A stretch of DNA of 64,000 bases, taken from Alphaproteobacteria bacterium. Its GTDB lineage: Bacteria > Pseudomonadota > Alphaproteobacteria > Acetobacterales > Acetobacteraceae. Both the position numbers and the translations under genes were made by a program. Every line of letters starts with the position of its first letter. The stretch's first letter is position 1. Location of the stretch: the NCBI GenBank assembly GCA_020850755.1, contig JADZEB010000008.1, positions 1-64,000 of the forward strand, read 5' to 3'. Shown here in pieces: positions 1,403-17,717 of this stretch. The notes under the pieces are model-generated. The model ran no database searches. It was not told the DNA's origin and saw only the letters and a program-made list of their open reading frames with translations.

Positions 1403-2485
1403 CTACCTCTGCGTGAACACGTCGCGGCGCATGCGATCGGCGATCTGGCTCATGCGCGGGGCGATCTCCTGCCAGTTCAGCCGCAACAGCTTGTCGAGCG
1501 GCACCACCCGCGCCGCCACCGGCGGATCAAGCTGCACCGTCCTGTTCGACATGCCCGAGACCATGGCGTTGCCGAACGCCGTCTGCGCCTCCTTCGACAG
1601 CGCCCAGTTGACGAACTCCAGCAAGAGGTCGCGGTTGCGCGCCTTCTGCGGCACATGGAAGGACAGGATGCCCACCGGCGCGCCCTCGCGCGGGACGGTG
1701 AACTCCACCGGCGTGCCGCCATCCTTGAGCGCATAGGCGCGCGAGCTGCCGATGCTGGCCACGGATGCTTCGGCCCGCTGCAACAGGTTCATCGCCTCGT
1801 TGGGCGAGCGGAACCAGCGATAGACGTGCGGCGCCAGCGCCTTCAACGCGGCGAAACCGGGTTCGAGGTTGGTCTCGCTGCCGCCATGCAGCTGCGCGGC
1901 GATGACGACCAGCTCATACAGGTAGCCGCCGGAAAGGTCGGGCAGCAGGAGCTGGCCGCGGAAGCGCGGCTCCCACAGACCCTTCCAGGAAACGGGGGGC
2001 TGGCTGACCTTGTCGGTGCGGTAGGCAACGCCGTTCTCCACATAGTTGAAGCCCACGGCCTTGCGGTTGTAGGCGTCGTAGAAGAACGGGTCGATGTCGC
2101 GCAGGTTGGGGATCATCTGCGGCGTGAGGTCGAGGAACAGGTCGGGCAGCGTGATCGCGCGCATCGCCACCGGCAGCGACAGGAAGGGCAGGTCGATCTC
2201 GGGATTGTCCTTGTTGGCGATCGCGTTGGTCAGCCACTCATTGGCCGCGCCGTAGCGGATGACGAAGCGCGCGCCCGTGCGCGCCGTGAAGGGGTCGAGC
2301 ACGGCCTTGCGGTAGTTCTGCTCGTAGATGCCGCCGAACAGGGTGGTGACGATGGTGCGTGTCTGCGCCCGCACGATCGCGGGGAAGCCCAGCGTGAGCG
2401 CGCCGGCGGCGGCAACACCTCCGGCCAGCACGGCACGGCGCGAGGCGGCGGGGCGGGCGGGGCGAATGGCGGAACGGTCGGTCAT
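1403..2485 (-). CDS. ABC transporter substrate-binding protein (spermidine/putrescine-like)
   Basis: A 360-residue periplasmic receptor of the PotD/PotF-like class (extracellular solute-binding family 1/8). The chosen ATG at 2483-2485 is preceded by GGAGG at a suitable distance; a longer upstream reading has no such site. The N-terminus has a twin-arginine-like SRRAVLAG followed by a hydrophobic stretch and a VRAQ cleavage region, so export is likely by Tat. The mature part begins TRTIVTTLFGGIYEQNYRK and contains domain-swapping segments typical of the fold. It is the last gene of a minus-strand unit after two permeases and a cysteine hydrolase. The substrate cannot be read from the sequence; polyamines are only one option. 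Confidence 0.88.
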   Translation of the reverse strand: MTDRSAIRPARPAASRRAVLAGGVAAAGALTLGFPAIVRAQTRTIVTTLFGGIYEQNYRKAVLDPFTARTGARFVIRYGAANEWLTNAIANKDNPEIDLPFLSLPVAMRAITLPDLFLDLTPQMIPNLRDIDPFFYDAYNRKAVGFNYVENGVAYRTDKVSQPPVSWKGLWEPRFRGQLLLPDLSGGYLYELVVIAAQLHGGSETNLEPGFAALKALAPHVYRWFRSPNEAMNLLQRAEASVASIGSSRAYALKDGGTPVEFTVPREGAPVGILSFHVPQKARNRDLLLEFVNWALSKEAQTAFGNAMVSGMSNRTVQLDPPVAARVVPLDKLLRLNWQEIAPRMSQIADRMRRDVFTQR

Positions 2486-2561
2486 GGCGCGAACCTCCAG
2501 GCTGTTCTCGGGGTGTTCAGGCCATCGTGCCGCGACCGCGCGGTAACGGGAAGGGGGCGCG

Positions 2562-3341
2562 TCAGCCACCGACGACGCGGCGCAGGCCCACCAGCCGTTC
2601 GAGCAGCAGGGCGGCGGCAAGCGAGGCGGCGATCAGCATGGTGGACACCGCCGCGACCGAGGGATCGAAATTGTATTCGGCGTAGTTCAGGATCGCGAGC
2701 GGCAGGGTGTTGGTGTGCGCGCTGGCCAGGAACAGCGACAGCGACACATTGTCGAAGCTGACGATGAAGGCGAACACCATCCCCGCGATCAGCCCCGGGC
2801 GCAACAGCGGCAGGGTCACGTGCCAGAAGGCGCGCAAGGGGCTGGCGCCGAGCGTCAGCGCCGCTTCCTCGGTCACGGCATCGATGCGCGCGAGGCTGGC
2901 GATGATCGTGCGCACCATGTAGGGGAAGGTGATCAGCACATGCGCGCCGACCAGGCGCAGGCCGACATCGCGCACGCCAAGCCCCGAGAAGGCCAGCAGC
3001 ACCGCAAGCCCGATCACGATCGAGGGCACCACCAGCGGCGCGAGCAGGAAGGTCTGCAGGCCGTCGCGCCCGGGAAAGGGTATGCGCACGATGGCGTAGG
3101 CGGCCGCGAGCGCGATCGGCGTTGCGATCAATGTCGCCAGGCTTGCCAGCCACAGGCTGTTGATGGCGCTGTCGGTGAAGGCGGTCTCGGCGAGCGCATG
3201 CGCATACCAGCGCAAGGAGAGGCCGCGCGGCGGGAACTCGGGCGAGGGCGTGTCGCTGAAGGAAGCAACCACCACGACGATGATCGGCGCCAGGATGAAC
3301 AGCGCCACGCAGCCCACAATGACGCGCAACAGGCGGCTCAT
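2562..3341 (-). CDS. ABC transporter permease (PotC-like)
   Basis: A 259-residue inner-membrane permease with about six hydrophobic segments. It has a binding-protein-dependent transport motif around EEAALTLGASPLRAFWHVTL, the EAA loop that docks onto the ATPase. Its length and fold match PotC/PotI-type subunits. The ATG overlaps the stop of the upstream permease (ATGA at 3338-3341), so the two are translationally coupled and probably form a heterodimeric channel with it. The receptor gene follows 76 bp downstream. No ATPase gene accompanies the set. Confidence 0.92.
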   Translation of the reverse strand: MSRLLRVIVGCVALFILAPIIVVVVASFSDTPSPEFPPRGLSLRWYAHALAETAFTDSAINSLWLASLATLIATPIALAAAYAIVRIPFPGRDGLQTFLLAPLVVPSIVIGLAVLLAFSGLGVRDVGLRLVGAHVLITFPYMVRTIIASLARIDAVTEEAALTLGASPLRAFWHVTLPLLRPGLIAGMVFAFIVSFDNVSLSLFLASAHTNTLPLAILNYAEYNFDPSVAAVSTMLIAASLAAALLLERLVGLRRVVGG

Positions 3342-4234
3342 GCCTGGGCTCCGGCCCGGCCTCCCGCGCGCGCATCGTGCCGCCCGGCGCCAAGCGCCCC
3401 GGCACGGCTGAGCAGGCGCATGTAGAGGAACACCACCGTCATCGCCACCGCCAGCAGGAGCGCGGCAAGCGCGGCGCCGAACGGCCATTCGAACAGCATG
3501 GTGAACTGCTGGTAGATCAGCGTGGTGATGAAGTTGGGGCCGCTCGGCCCCAGCACCGCCGGCGTGACATAGGCCGAGATCGCGATGCTGAATACGATCG
3601 TCGTGCCGGCACCGATGCCAGGCAGGGCGAGCGGCAGGGTGATGTGCCAGAGAGTGCGGCGCGCATCGGCCCCGAGCGTCGCCGCCGCTTCCGCCAGCAG
3701 CGGGTCGATGCGCTCCAGCGCCGCCAGGATCGACAGCACCATGAAGGGCAGCACGATATGCGTCAGCCCGACCACGATCGCGAACTCGGAATACATCAGC
3801 CGCAGGGGCGTGCTGGTGATGCCGGCCCACATCAGCAGGCTGTTGATCGTTCCGCGGTTCCCCAGCAGCACGATCCAGCCATAGGAGCTGACCACGATCG
3901 AGACCAATAGCGGCGACAGCGCCAGGATGGTCAGCGGTCCGCGCCAGCGCGCCGGCGCCTTCCACATGAAATGCGCAAGCGGATAGCCGAGCGCCACCGC
4001 CAGAACCGTGATGATGAGCGCCATCAGGATGGTGCGCCCGAAGATGCCGAGGAAGAAGCTGTCGGTCAGGGCGCGGCTGTAATGCTCGAGCGTCAACCCG
4101 CCTGCGGCCTGCACGCCGCTCTGCCCCTCGAACAGCGAGAAGCGGATCAGCCAGCCGACCGGCAGCACCAGCACCACCACGATCAGGATTACCGCTGGCA
4201 GCAGCAGCAGCAGGGCGGTGCGGGGGCGGCGCAT
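3338..4234 (-). CDS. ABC transporter permease (PotB-like)
   Basis: A 298-residue membrane protein. The chosen ATG (4232-4234) gives a short N-terminus followed at once by a hydrophobic helix. An upstream extension in the same frame reads through the end of the hydrolase gene and is unlikely. It carries an EAA loop around LLAEAAATLGADARRTLWH and six predicted membrane helices, as in PotB/PotH. It overlaps the second permease by four bases and starts 47 bp after the cysteine hydrolase gene. Together with the neighbouring receptor it would form an importer, but an ATP-binding subunit must come from elsewhere. Confidence 0.9.
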   Translation of the reverse strand: MRRPRTALLLLLPAVILIVVVLVLPVGWLIRFSLFEGQSGVQAAGGLTLEHYSRALTDSFFLGIFGRTILMALIITVLAVALGYPLAHFMWKAPARWRGPLTILALSPLLVSIVVSSYGWIVLLGNRGTINSLLMWAGITSTPLRLMYSEFAIVVGLTHIVLPFMVLSILAALERIDPLLAEAAATLGADARRTLWHITLPLALPGIGAGTTIVFSIAISAYVTPAVLGPSGPNFITTLIYQQFTMLFEWPFGAALAALLLAVAMTVVFLYMRLLSRAGALGAGRHDARAGGRAGAQA

Positions 4235-4281
4235 CGGATGCGGGGGGCGCGGCGCGAGGCAGCGGGGCGGGCGCGGTCGTG

Positions 4282-5637
4282 CTACTCGGCCGCGCGCGGC
4301 TTGGCCCTGGCCGCCGCCGCCTTGTCCCAGAGCGAGGCGACACGTTCGGTCGGCACGATCTCGGCGAAGTAGATGCGCATGGTCTCCAAAGCCCAGCCGT
4401 GCAGGTGGCGCAGCCGCCCGCGCGCGGCCACCGCGTCCTCGGCCACCACCGCGTAGTAGTCGCGGAAGCGCGCCTCGCGCACGGTCGATTCCACGCAGGC
4501 AGGCGTCGCCGTGCCGCACACCACCAGCGAGCGGATGCCGTTCGAGCGCAGCAGCGTCTCGAGATCGGTGTCGATGAATGCGGACAGGCGATGCTTGCGC
4601 ACGATCGGTTCGCCCGGCAGCGGGGCGAGCTCGTCGATCTGGCGTGCACCCCAGCTTCCGGGCAGGCAGATCTCCAGCGTCACGCGCCCGCCATCGGCGC
4701 CGAACAGCGAGGAAGGCGAGCCGCTCGCCGCGCCATAGGCGCCGTTGACATGGATCACCATCACGCCGGCGGCGCGCGCGCTGGCCAGCAGCCGCTGGAT
4801 CGCCGGGATGATGGCGCGGTTGTCGGCCACGTCCTCGCCGCGCCGGGCCATCACGCCGTCGGGGTGGCAGAAATCGTTCTGCATGTCGATCAGCATCAGC
4901 GCGGCGTGGGCGGGATCGGCCATCTGCTCGGGCGTGGTCAGCGCCAGCGCGCGCTTGACCTCGAGCTGCCAGCCGCGCGGCCCCGGTGCGGCCGCGTTCC
5001 AGATCGCGGCCAGGCTCGCCACCTCGCTGACATGGGCCATGGTCTGGCCGAGCTTGGCGAGCGAGGCATCGTGGCGGGCGCGGTCCATCGAGGCGCAGGC
5101 ATCGGCCGCCATCACCACGCGGTAGCCGCGGAAGAAGGCATCGCGCGCCGATGAATCGACGCAGCCCGAGGTGACGACGCCGGTCATCACCACGGTCTTG
5201 ATGCCGTTCGAGCGCAGATAGAGGTCGATGTCGCTGTCCCAGAAGGCGCTGTAGCGGTGCTTGGTCGCCACCACCTCGTTCGGCGCATCAGGCAGCGGGC
5301 GCAGATCGCCCCAGAAATCGGTCTCCCAGTCGCCATCGGGGCAGCGCACCGGGTCGCGCCCGCCCTTGGAAAGCTGCTCGGCCAGCGCCTCGCACTGGTG
5401 GACCAGGTCGTAGGTCGCGCGCACCCAGACGATGAAGGTGCCGGCCTTGCGCGCCGCGGCGACCAGCTCGCGCAGGCGATCGGCCATCGGCGCCATCATC
5501 GCGAGGTTCGATCCGGCCCGGCCGTGATAGCCCTGCGGGTGGCAGAAATTGTTCTGCACATCCACCACCACGAGGGCGGTGTGGGCCGGATCGACGATCT
5601 TCGCGAGTGGCATTGTTTCAGGCGTGAAGCTGCGCAT
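4282..5637 (-). CDS. Tandem two-domain isochorismatase-family cysteine hydrolase
   Basis: A 451-residue protein made of two complete cysteine-hydrolase domains, about twice the family's usual length. Domain 1 (about 15-200) has Asp26 in VVVDVQNNF, Lys126 in TKHRYSAF and Cys159 in TSGCVDSS. Domain 2 (about 235-430) has Asp251 in LIDMQNDF, Lys348 in RKHRLSAF and Cys381 in TPACVEST. Both Asp-Lys-Cys triads are therefore intact. Relatives hydrolyse amides, ureido acids such as N-carbamoylsarcosine, nicotinamide or isochorismate; the substrate here is unknown. It is the first gene of a unit with an ABC importer, which suggests that it processes the imported compound. Confidence 0.9.
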   Translation of the reverse strand: MRSFTPETMPLAKIVDPAHTALVVVDVQNNFCHPQGYHGRAGSNLAMMAPMADRLRELVAAARKAGTFIVWVRATYDLVHQCEALAEQLSKGGRDPVRCPDGDWETDFWGDLRPLPDAPNEVVATKHRYSAFWDSDIDLYLRSNGIKTVVMTGVVTSGCVDSSARDAFFRGYRVVMAADACASMDRARHDASLAKLGQTMAHVSEVASLAAIWNAAAPGPRGWQLEVKRALALTTPEQMADPAHAALMLIDMQNDFCHPDGVMARRGEDVADNRAIIPAIQRLLASARAAGVMVIHVNGAYGAASGSPSSLFGADGGRVTLEICLPGSWGARQIDELAPLPGEPIVRKHRLSAFIDTDLETLLRSNGIRSLVVCGTATPACVESTVREARFRDYYAVVAEDAVAARGRLRHLHGWALETMRIYFAEIVPTERVASLWDKAAAARAKPRAAE

Positions 5638-5722
5638 GCTGGCCCCCGATGCCCGACAGGGCAGGTCGTTGCCCGATCGAGGGTATGGCGCCGGCCTGGC
5701 CGAGGCAACCCGCTGCGCCGGC

Positions 5723-5739
5723 TTGGCACGCGGCCTGCA
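5723..5739 (+). promoter_or_regulatory. Sigma-54 (RpoN) promoter candidate
   Basis: TTGGCACG-N4-CTGCA lies here with GG (5725-5726) and GC (5737-5738) separated by exactly 10 bp, the spacing required by sigma-54. The only departure from the TTGGCACG-N4-TTGCA consensus is one T to C. Transcription would begin near 5750, at the start of the structured RNA below. The short inverted repeats upstream (5650-5663 and 5659-5674) could be activator sites, but they do not match the enteric NtrC consensus well. Confidence 0.65.
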
Positions 5740-5749
5740 TTCCTACCTG

Positions 5750-5841
5750 TGTGTGCCGGTGGCAAGACCGGCATGACTTAGCCTTCCTCGGATCTTGCAC
5801 ACCTTAAGGGGCCGTCGCCTTTGCGACCGGCCCCTTTTTTT
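5750..5841 (+). ncRNA. Candidate small RNA with its own terminator
   Basis: About 92 nt run from the predicted sigma-54 start to a strong terminator, with no ORF. The RNA can fold two ways. One is a hairpin TGCCGGT/ACCGGCA (5754-5760 with 5767-5773). The other is a longer stem, GTGT/ACAC (5751-5754 with 5799-5802) plus GCAAGA/TCTTGC (5762-5767 with 5793-5798), which places CCTTCCTC (5782-5789) in the loop. That octamer is complementary to Shine-Dalgarno sequences, as in several alphaproteobacterial trans-acting sRNAs. It sits divergently from the hydrolase/ABC operon and about 200 bp before cutA. It could instead be a leader, but the terminator argues for a free RNA. Confidence 0.55.
5808..5841 (+). 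terminator. Strong Rho-independent terminator without an upstream coding gene
   Basis: Stem 5808-5818 pairs with 5823-5834 (one unpaired base) around the loop CTTT, and seven T residues follow directly. The poly-T tail exists only on the plus strand, yet no plus-strand gene precedes it for more than 4 kb. It therefore probably terminates the small RNA called here. Confidence 0.85.
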
Positions 5842-8977: not shown

Positions 8978-10308
8978 GGCGCCAGCGCAGCGCGCGCCCG
9001 GCCAGCCGGGCGCACCACGCCCAGGCTGGCCACGCCCAGGCTGGCCACGCCCAGGTTGGCCGCGCCTTCGCGCCGCGGGCCGCCCCGCAATCCGTTCCTG
9101 TCGGCGCGATGCTGGCCGATGTGCTGGCGGCAACGGTCGAGGCTCCCGAAGTCGCGCCCGCGCCGAGAACGGCCGCGCGCGCAGCACCCTTCGAGCCCGG
9201 CCCCGTGCTCGCGGCCTTGCCCGGCGCGGTCGTGGTGGTCGATGCCGAGGCGCGCTTCCGCTTCGCCAACCCGGAGGCCGAGGCGTTCTTCCAGCTTTCC
9301 GCCGGCACGCTGCGTCAGCTCCGCCTGGCCGACCTGTTGCCGCCCGACAATCCGCTGTTCGCGCTGATCGCCCAGGTGCGCGCGACGCAGGCTTCCGTCT
9401 CCGACTACGGGCTGACGCTGGAAAGCCCGCGCCTTCACCGCAGCGGTGTCGCCGTGCATGGTGCGCCCCTGCTCGAGGAAGCCGGCGCGGTGGTGCTGAT
9501 GCTCCAGGACGCGTCCACCGCGCGCAAGCTGGACCGCTCGCTCGATGCACGCAATGTCGCGCGTTCGGTCACCGGCATGGCGGCGATGCTGGCGCACGAG
9601 GTGAAGAACCCGCTCTCCGGCATCAAGGGCGCGGCGCAGCTCCTGGAGCAGTCGGTGGGCGAGGGCGAGCGTGCGCTGACCCAGCTCATCTGCGACGAGG
9701 CCGACCGCATCAACGCGCTGGTCGATCGCATGGAGATCTTCTCCGAACGCCCGATCGAGCGGCAGGCGGTGAACATCCACCAGGTGCTCGACCATGTGCG
9801 CCGCATCGCGCAATCAGGATTCGCGCGCCATGTGCGCTTCCTCGAGCATTACGACCCGTCGCTGCCGCCGGTGCTCGGCAATCGCGACCAGCTCGTGCAG
9901 GTGGTGCTGAACCTGGTCAAGAACGCGGCCGAGGCGGTGCCGGCGATCGGCGGCGAGATCGCGCTCGCCACCGCCTACCAGCATGGCGTGCGGCTGGCCG
10001 CGCCCACGGCGGCGCAGCGCCTGCACCTGCCGCTGACCATCAGCGTGCGCGACAACGGCCCCGGCATCCCCGAGGATCTCCGCCCGCACCTGTTCGATCC
10101 CTTCGTCAGTACCAAGACCAACGGCAAGGGACTGGGCCTGGCGCTGGTGGCCAAGATCGTCGCCGATCATGGCGGGCTGGTGGAGTGCGACAGCCAGCCG
10201 GGCCGTACCATCTTCCGCCTGCACCTGCCGGCGTCGAGCGAAAGCGAGGCGGAGGGCGCGCCGGACGCGCCCGGGCCAACCATGCCAGTGCCGGGCGAGG
10301 GGCCATGA
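8974..10308 (+). CDS. ntrB: Nitrogen regulation sensor histidine kinase NtrB
   Basis: A 444-residue soluble kinase/phosphatase that, under PII control, phosphorylates NtrC in nitrogen limitation. Order: a low-complexity N-terminus with HAQAG repeated three times (about 15-29), a PAS domain (about 70-185), a HisKA region with His208 in [12 protein letters not shown], and a HATPase domain (about 300-430) with N box [16 protein letters not shown] and KGLGLALV. The GTG at 8974 overlaps the dusB stop; an ATG at about 9109 (start of the MLADVL segment) is an alternative that would remove the repeats. The stop overlaps the ATG of ntrC. Confidence 0.93.
9016..9060 (+). repeat. Three tandem 15-bp units inside ntrB
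   Basis: CACGCCCAGGCTGGC occurs three times head to tail (9016-9030, 9031-9045 and 9046-9060, the last with one change). It encodes HAQAG repeats in the N-terminus of NtrB, before the PAS domain. In-frame copy-number change would be tolerated. Confidence 0.9.
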
Positions 10309-11771
10309 CCACGCCCCCGACCATCCTGCTCGCGGACGATGACCGCTCGATCCGCACGGTGCTGACCCACGCGCTCGGCCGCGCCGGCTACCAGGTGCGC
10401 AGCACGGGCAGCGCGGCCATGCTGTGGCGCTGGGTCGAGGAGGGCGAGGGCGATCTCGTCATTACCGATGTGGTGATGCCGGACGAGAACGGGCTCGACC
10501 TCATCCCGCGCATCAAGCGCATCCGCCCCGACCTGCGCGTCATTGTGATGAGCGCGCAAAGCACGCTGATCACGGCGGTGAAGGCGACCCAGCGCGGCGC
10601 CTTCGAGTATCTCGCCAAGCCCTTCGACCTCAAGGTGCTGCTGGCGACCGTGGAGCGCGCGCTCGCCGCGCCGCCGGAGGGCGTTCAGGCACGAGCGCAG
10701 GACGAGGGCGCACGCGCCGAGAACCCGGCCGAGCGCCTGCCGCTGATCGGCCGCTCGCCGGCGATGCAGGAGATCTACCGCGCGGTCGCACGGCTGACGA
10801 CGACCGATCTCACGGTGATGATCACCGGCGAGTCCGGCAGCGGGAAGGAACTGGTCGCGCGCGCCCTGCACGATTTCGGCACGCGCCGCCCCGGGCCGTT
10901 CGTGGCGGTGAACATGGCCGCGATCCCGCGCGAGCTGATCGAGAGCGAGCTGTTCGGCCACGAACGCGGCGCCTTCACCGGCGCGACCCAGCGCGCCACC
11001 GGCCGGTTCGAGCAGGCGGCCTCGGGCACGCTCTTTCTCGACGAGATCGGCGACATGCCGCCCGAGGCGCAGACCCGCCTCCTGCGGGTCTTGCAGCAGG
11101 GCGAGTTCACCACCGTCGGTGGCCGCACGCCGGTGCGCGCCGATGCGCGCATCATCGCCGCCACGCATCGCGACCTGCGCCATCTCATCCGCCAGGGCCT
11201 TTTCCGCGAGGACCTTTTCTATCGCCTTAACGTCGTGCCGATCCGCCTGCCCCCCTTGCGCGAGCGAGCCGAGGATATCGACGATCTCGCGCGCCACTTC
11301 CTGGCCAGGGCCGCGCCGCCGCGCACGATGCCGAAGGCGCTGGATTGGGCCGCGCTCGATCGGCTGCGCAGCTATCGCTGGCCGGGCAATGTGCGCGAGC
11401 TCGAGAACCTGATGCGCCGGCTGGCCGTGCTCTATCCGCAGGAGACGATCGGCGCCGACACGATCGAGGCGGAACTGGCCGAGGCTGCCGCCCAGGCACC
11501 ATTGCCCTTGGCCGCGGCCGAGGCGGGGTCGCTGTCCGAGGCGATCGAGCGGCATCTGCGTGGCTATTTCGCCGCGCACAGGAACGGGCTGCCGCCCGCC
11601 GGCCTCTATGATCGCGTACTCGCCGAACTGGAGAGGCCGCTGATCGAGATCACGCTCGGGGCAACGCGCGGCAACCAGCTTCGCGCGGCCGCGCTGCTGG
11701 GGCTCAACCGCAACACGCTGCGCAAGAAGATACGCGACCTCGACATCGCCGGCGGGAGGGGGAGCGCATGA
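10305..11771 (+). CDS. ntrC: Nitrogen regulation response regulator NtrC
   Basis: A 488-residue sigma-54 activator. The receiver domain (about 1-120) has the phosphoacceptor Asp55 in [12 protein letters not shown]. The AAA+ domain (about 150-385) has Walker A GESGSGKE (175-182), an intact GAFTGA loop (222-227) that contacts sigma-54, and Walker [10 protein letters not shown]. The C-terminus has a Fis-type helix-turn-helix around [12 protein letters not shown]. The ATG overlaps the ntrB stop, and the stop overlaps the ntrY start. Targets would include glutamine synthetase and ammonium transport genes, and possibly the sigma-54 promoter at 5723 in this window. Confidence 0.97.

Positions 11772-14153: not shown

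Positions 14154-14164
<11 letters not shown>
11768..14164 (+). CDS. ntrY: Membrane sensor histidine kinase NtrY
   Basis: A 798-residue membrane kinase. Three N-terminal hydrophobic segments (within about 40-145) precede a periplasmic sensor region (about 150-310). A further membrane helix (about 320-350) follows, then HAMP (about 350-400), PAS (about 415-520), HisKA with His537 in [13 protein letters not shown], and a HATPase domain ending near 770 ([11 protein letters not shown]-type N box and [12 protein letters not shown]). NtrY partners NtrX and is linked to nitrogen, redox and envelope responses in alphaproteobacteria. An insertion of about 25 residues rich in Gly lies between the N box and the rest of the ATPase. 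It overlaps ntrC by 4 bp and ntrX by 11 bp. Confidence 0.95.
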
Positions 14165-15614
<1,450 letters not shown>

Positions 15615-17234: not shown

Positions 17235-17333
17235 CGCGCTGCCATATTTCCATCGTCAATGCCCTCCGCCGGGGGAGGGACCAAACGCTAACGCAGCAGG
17301 AATGCGCGGTGGCCAAGAAGAAGGCTAGAGCAA

Positions 17334-17717
17334 ATGGCTAACGACAAGTCGCAGAACGTGCAGGAAGTGTTCCTGAACCACGTTCGCAAGAACAAGACGC
17401 CAGTGACCATTTTCCTCGTCAATGGCGTCAAGCTTCAGGGGATCATCACCTGGTTCGATAATTTCTCTGTCCTGTTGCGCCGCGATGGCCATACCCAGCT
17501 TGTCTACAAGCACGCCATCTCGACCGTAATGCCAGGCGCCCCGATCCAGCTGTTCGATGGCACGCCCGCCACCGGAGCCGCCATCGGGCGCGAGGGTGAG
17601 GGGGCGGCCACCCCCACGGCCGCCCCCACGGCCGCAGCGCCGGCCGCGCCGGCTTCGCCCACGCGCCTGACCATCGGCGCGCGTGCCGCCGCGACACGCG
17701 CCGACAACGACGGTTGA
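17334..17717 (+). CDS. hfq: RNA chaperone Hfq
   Basis: A 127-residue protein. The Sm core (about 5-70) has [19 protein letters not shown] and the family KH-type motif YKHAIS. Hfq forms a hexameric ring that pairs small RNAs with mRNAs. The C-terminal 50 residues are a disordered Ala/Pro/Thr-rich tail, longer than the about 80-residue form usual in alphaproteobacteria. The stop overlaps a TTG that starts hflX. The 99-bp gap upstream may hold its own promoter; none is clear. Confidence 0.97.

Follow-up and report, generated by a model that had tools for sequence, protein, structure and literature searches.

A probable sigma-54-dependent small RNA gene beside cutA and the ntr locus in two genera of an alphaproteobacterial family

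Genes surrounding the element

The window (the whole 64,000-nucleotide stretch of DNA that was analysed) contains a short non-coding element that follows a divergent operon and precedes cutA. The divergent operon, at 1403-5637, encodes an ABC transport system with a solute-binding protein and two permeases, and no ATPase was seen among its genes. Its lead protein of 451 amino acids has two isochorismatase domains in tandem, and the gene for it, on the minus strand, is the nearest upstream of the element. Downstream, the order is cutA (CutA1, PF03091; 6041-6379, plus strand), ispDF on the minus strand, dusB, ntrB, ntrC (10308-11771, plus strand; PF00158/PF00072), ntrY, ntrX, an aminotransferase-like gene, hfq (17334-17717, plus strand; PF17209, E 1.5e-31) and hflX, where the aminotransferase-like and hflX assignments were read from the sequence. 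These gene calls agree with the original prediction that NtrBC and Hfq are encoded close by.

Which of these neighbours belongs with the element? It had been described as divergent from an amide hydrolase/ABC operon, and this orientation holds, but the neighbours conserved with the element are cutA and the ntr locus and not that operon. An association with the isochorismatase/ABC operon was rejected because relatives of the 451-residue protein (44-70% identity), which come mainly from uncultured alphaproteobacteria, have different genes upstream and lack an element of this kind. Between the operon and the element there is a palindrome, TGCCCGACAGGGCA, at 5650-5663; this is possibly a regulator site, with a spacing unlike that of NtrC sites.

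A sigma-54-type promoter

A putative -24/-12 promoter, TTGGCACGCGGCCTGCA, is located at 5723-5739 on the plus strand. It has the layout TTGGCACG-CGGC-CTGCA, in which the GG at 5725-5726 and the GC at 5737-5738 are separated by N10, and it agrees with 12 of the 13 informative positions of YTGGCACG-N4-TTGCW. When both strands of the window were scanned, this was the one site scoring at least 12; the reversed window, used as a control, had zero. RpoN is encoded in the source genome (PF04552, E 1.7e-67). The near-consensus promoter with GG-N10-GC spacing, as first described, is thus upheld.

How much can be read from such a motif? Genome-wide, the looser pattern TGGCAYR-N5-TGCW gave 10 matches versus 18 in the reversed control; being no commoner than in the control, the motif by itself is weak evidence. 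Some sigma-54-like motifs of the source genome fall inside genes. Yet one of the 10 matches is the bona fide glnK promoter, and the motif therefore does have predictive value. Another sigma-54-like site, TGGCACACTCATTGCA, is intergenic and lies upstream of TadE-like pilus assembly genes (contig C15, 103763-103778, minus strand).

Anatomy of the predicted RNA

The start of the RNA was placed at about 5750, 12 nt past the C of the -12 element. From here a predicted small RNA of about 91 nt extends to the T-run that ends at 5841, and the fold of the whole RNA has a z-score of -4.5. It begins with a 7-bp hairpin, TGCCGGT-GGCAAG-ACCGGCA, at 5754-5773 (-12.9 kcal/mol, z -4.19). This is followed at 5777-5789 by the core CTTAGCCTTCCTC, a putative anti-Shine-Dalgarno seed whose anti-Shine-Dalgarno segment, CCTTCCTC, occupies 5782-5789. 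A Rho-independent terminator spans 5806-5841 (-22.5 kcal/mol, z -4.85), with the hairpin at about 5806-5834 and seven T residues at 5835-5841. A simple terminator scan missed it, probably owing to a bulge. The claim of an ORF-free, structured RNA running from about 5750 into a strong terminator is consistent with these values. The terminator has no plus-strand gene upstream of it, as was noted at the outset, since the preceding isochorismatase-domain gene is on the minus strand.

The anti-Shine-Dalgarno sequence pointed out at the outset lies in this core. In the minimum free energy structure of the window RNA the core is partly paired within a long stem, so that the segment is half hidden, and the 5' hairpin competes with this stem. 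Enforcing the hairpin gives -39.2 versus -43.2 kcal/mol, a cost of 4 kcal/mol. The predicted fold of a second copy of the element, described below, leaves the core unpaired between two stable hairpins. Comparison of both folds suggests a shared architecture of 5' hairpin, open core and terminator. A small ORF or peptide was considered and rejected, because no reading frame is kept between the two copies.

A second copy in another genus

Homologues of the element were sought through its neighbour. A CutA search covered 200 genomes of the family, after which the DNA upstream of the best 30 hits was read. One of these 30 loci, L203, from a genome of another genus in the same family (G126), has a 12/13 sigma-54 motif and a poly-T. 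The L203 promoter, GTGGCACGGGGGTTGCT, lies at the orthologous place, and the distance from promoter to poly-T is 115 nt, compared with 112 nt in the window. Between the promoter and the terminator, the core CUUAGCCUUCCUC is identical at 13 of 13 positions. A 5' hairpin is predicted directly before it, in the same position as in the window and with a different sequence; CTTGC and a terminator beginning GGGGCCG are also present. The flanking DNA has diverged while the spacing of the cassette agrees, and the proteins of the two loci are just 55-74% identical. The downstream order is that of the window: cutA, ispDF, dusB, ntrB, ntrC, ntrY and the start of ntrX. The gene upstream differs: in G126 it is a transporter gene on the plus strand, immediately before the element, and the terminator could also serve it.

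L203 was reached via cutA, and its sigma-54 motif and poly-T were the features by which it was singled out from the 30; it is the 13-nt core that therefore counts as a wholly independent confirmation. When the 250 nt preceding the L203 cutA were shuffled, a shared 13-mer occurred in 11 of 20,000 and a promoter scoring at least 12 in 33 of 20,000. If the two events are independent, they would coincide with a probability of about 1e-6 per locus and about 4e-5 over the 39 cutA loci read, and a chance origin of the likeness therefore seems unlikely on these sequence statistics. Conservation of the -24/-12 motif in relatives, on whose absence the original prediction was to fall, was found, in two genomes in total. 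The finding of a conserved copy at an orthologous place strengthens the case for a sigma-54-dependent small RNA.

How widely is the element distributed? Across the 983 kb of loci compared, a core followed by a poly-T, allowing two mismatches at most, occurs at these two loci only. The element is absent from 12 further loci where cutA adjoins ispDF, and it is thus either lineage-restricted or sited elsewhere in those genomes. BLASTN with 151 nt against 100 relatives gave short chance matches only. The covariance search that had been suggested, run with a single-sequence model on 397 genomes of the family, found nothing beyond the element itself; this model also failed to report the L203 copy that was found via cutA, and its misses are weak evidence. 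The pattern GCCTTCCTC-N25-55-TTTTT proved too loose in the 397 genomes, and among the matches listed most were due to chance. The core pattern had 14 matches in viral contigs, without a promoter or terminator. When both elements were aligned over their full length with MAFFT, the core was misplaced; the two were therefore compared by the exact 13-mer and the order of features.

Alternative explanations

Is the element a member of a known family? The best Rfam match of both copies is RF00519 (suhB/MmgR, also called alpha-r8), and the strongest rival explanation, though still an unlikely one, is that it is a strongly diverged member of that family which has kept the RpoN/NtrC control known for Sinorhizobium meliloti MmgR. 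The matches cover the full length of the model, with 27.5 bits for the window copy and 32.1 bits for L203, and only seven RF00519 matches above 17 bits exist in the whole source genome. The anatomy is alike, with a short 5' helix, an unstructured conserved segment and an intrinsic terminator. However, both scores fall under the curated cut-off of 41 bits, and the conserved core of the family, GUUUCCUCCC, is not found in the candidate. UUUCCUCCC is present in 30 of 30 above-cut-off RF00519 loci examined and absent from both copies. Without the terminator, the likeness to the suhB core is not significant, being equalled by 1258 of 5000 shuffles (25%) for the window and 239 of 5000 (5%) for L203. 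Membership was rejected on the grounds of the score, the missing UUUCCUCCC and this terminator-free test. Moreover, the source genome has a proper copy elsewhere (contig C44, 75727-75801), a genuine suhB/MmgR RNA with 57.8 bits and a complete GUUUCCUCCC core, which has no -24/-12 motif within 130 nt upstream. Further sub-threshold relatives, which have a CCUCCC- or UUUCUUCCC-like core, are located in the same genome at C52:67300, C44:79466 and C35:23528. The element was originally held to be unrelated in sequence to Pseudomonas NrsZ, as far as could be told. The Rfam scan gave no family at or above its cut-off, and calling the element unrelated in sequence calls for the caveat that suhB/MmgR is the sub-threshold best match of both copies.

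Alternatively, the element might act in cis as a leader of cutA, with transcription starting from the sigma-54 promoter at 5750 and the terminator being passed or obeyed to attenuate cutA. This is somewhat less probable again. cutA does lie downstream in both genomes, but its distance past the terminator varies from 56 nt in G126 to about 200 nt in the window, other cutA genes lack the element, and the conserved core resembles a seed rather than an aptamer. When the terminator was forbidden, no alternative fold engaged its arms in either RNA; an attenuator was rejected, since neither copy is predicted to form a structure that competes with the terminator.

It is very improbable that a real small RNA is made from a sigma-70-type promoter and that the -24/-12 motif is coincidental. 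The comparison with the reversed control leaves room for this, but a sigma-70-like site for the small RNA was looked for and none was found, and L203 retains the motif at 12/13 despite its diverged flanks. Least likely, by a small step, is that there is no transcript but a chance promoter-like motif and an unrelated terminator; the transcript is a prediction from sequence and intragenic motifs of this type exist, but motif, 13-mer, terminator and gene order are jointly kept in L203.

Proposed function of the small RNA

The best-supported explanation, held with reasonable though incomplete confidence, is a free-standing gene for a sigma-54-driven, trans-acting small RNA from about 5750 to about 5841. 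Sigma-54 RNA polymerase would transcribe this region into an RNA in which a 5' hairpin is followed by a pyrimidine-rich, mostly unpaired core and a U-tailed terminator. The RNA would most likely work in trans, probably with Hfq, and the core would pair with the purine-rich Shine-Dalgarno regions of target mRNAs, so that their translation is blocked. Its synthesis would require an active sigma-54 activator, for which NtrC during nitrogen limitation is the most plausible candidate. We infer each of these steps (transcription, Hfq binding, action in trans, repression and nitrogen control) from the features of the two loci.

Which regulator could activate the promoter? Both NtrBC and NtrYX had been named. 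A GAFTGA loop is required for contact with sigma-54, and NtrC carries one. NtrX (14157-15614) does not; it reads ELFGVESADAVQPRRIGA at that place (ELFGVESADAVQPRR) and thus probably does not activate sigma-54. NtrC is therefore the sole possible sigma-54 activator of these two nearby regulators. The glnK promoter of the source genome, CTGGCACGAGCGATGCA (contig C39, 28009-28024, minus strand), would be a ready-made positive control for NtrC and sigma-54 in this species: TGC-N11-GCA occurs there twice in tandem, at -99 and -80 relative to the promoter. A search for exact matches to TGC-N11-GCA found none within 250 nt upstream of either copy of the element, and the link to NtrC is correspondingly weaker. 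The NtrC half of the earlier proposal is consistent with the GAFTGA loop and the NtrX half is not. Nitrogen control of the small RNA is plausible.

Because the core CCUUCCUC complements Shine-Dalgarno sequences, many start regions are predicted to pair strongly with it. Among 47 genes of the window, hfq comes 9th in predicted pairing, and 87 of 1,000 shuffled cores do equally well. The ribosome-binding region of hfq, GAAGAAGGCUAGAG (17320-17334), has eight contiguous bases complementary to the core (GAAGGCUA), a match that is not significant against shuffled cores. Target pairing in the window is not specific, and no target is claimed. The 3' end, with U7 after the stable terminator hairpin, fits an Hfq-type RNA.

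On balance, the element probably encodes a real trans-acting small RNA under sigma-54 control, belonging to a new family that is restricted to a lineage and was seen in two genera. The wider proposal is more tentative: that a new alphaproteobacterial family has been retained by more than one genus beside cutA-ispDF-dusB-ntrBCYX and provides a post-transcriptional arm of sigma-54/NtrC control by masking Shine-Dalgarno sequences. If true, a non-coding arm of the nitrogen response would have arisen again in another lineage. A compact RNA that two genera of a single alphaproteobacterial family share beside ntrBC is also a simple gene to delete and test.

Comparison with known small RNAs

The kind of RNA is already known, and what is new is probably the family and its retention beside cutA-ispDF-dusB-ntrBC. 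In the literature searched, few small RNAs have their own sigma-54 promoter (NrsZ and MmgR). The small RNA GlnZ of Enterobacteriaceae belongs to the NtrC regulon and depends on RpoN (PMC9731577). It is processed from mRNA, being cut from the glnA 3' UTR, whereas the candidate has a promoter of its own. NfeR1 of Sinorhizobium meliloti is, like the candidate, an alphaproteobacterial small RNA linked to NtrBC (PMC10746234). In contrast to the candidate with its sigma-54 motif, NfeR1 is repressed by NtrC and activated by LsrB, and a sigma-54 promoter does not drive it.

In Pseudomonas, the RpoN/NtrC small RNA NrsZ is encoded beside ntrC; in P. aeruginosa it is about 226 nt long, processed, located between ntrC and PA5126, and NtrC-dependent by experiment (PMC8395346; PMC9731577). 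The candidate resembles it in being a small RNA near ntrBC with an RpoN promoter, which in its case is assigned by sequence. It differs in its length of about 91 nt, its position ahead of cutA and about 4.5 kb upstream of ntrC, and the absence of a visible NtrC site. The suhB RNA is short, with a 5' helix, an unstructured conserved anti-Shine-Dalgarno core and a terminator (PMC1273637), and S. meliloti MmgR is Hfq-dependent, NtrC-induced and listed with RpoN (PMC7143759). The candidate shares the helix, open core and terminator with this family, whereas its score, its lack of UUUCCUCCC and a core likeness that is not significant after control for composition set it apart. By analogy, MmgR and NrsZ would be close functional parallels of the candidate.
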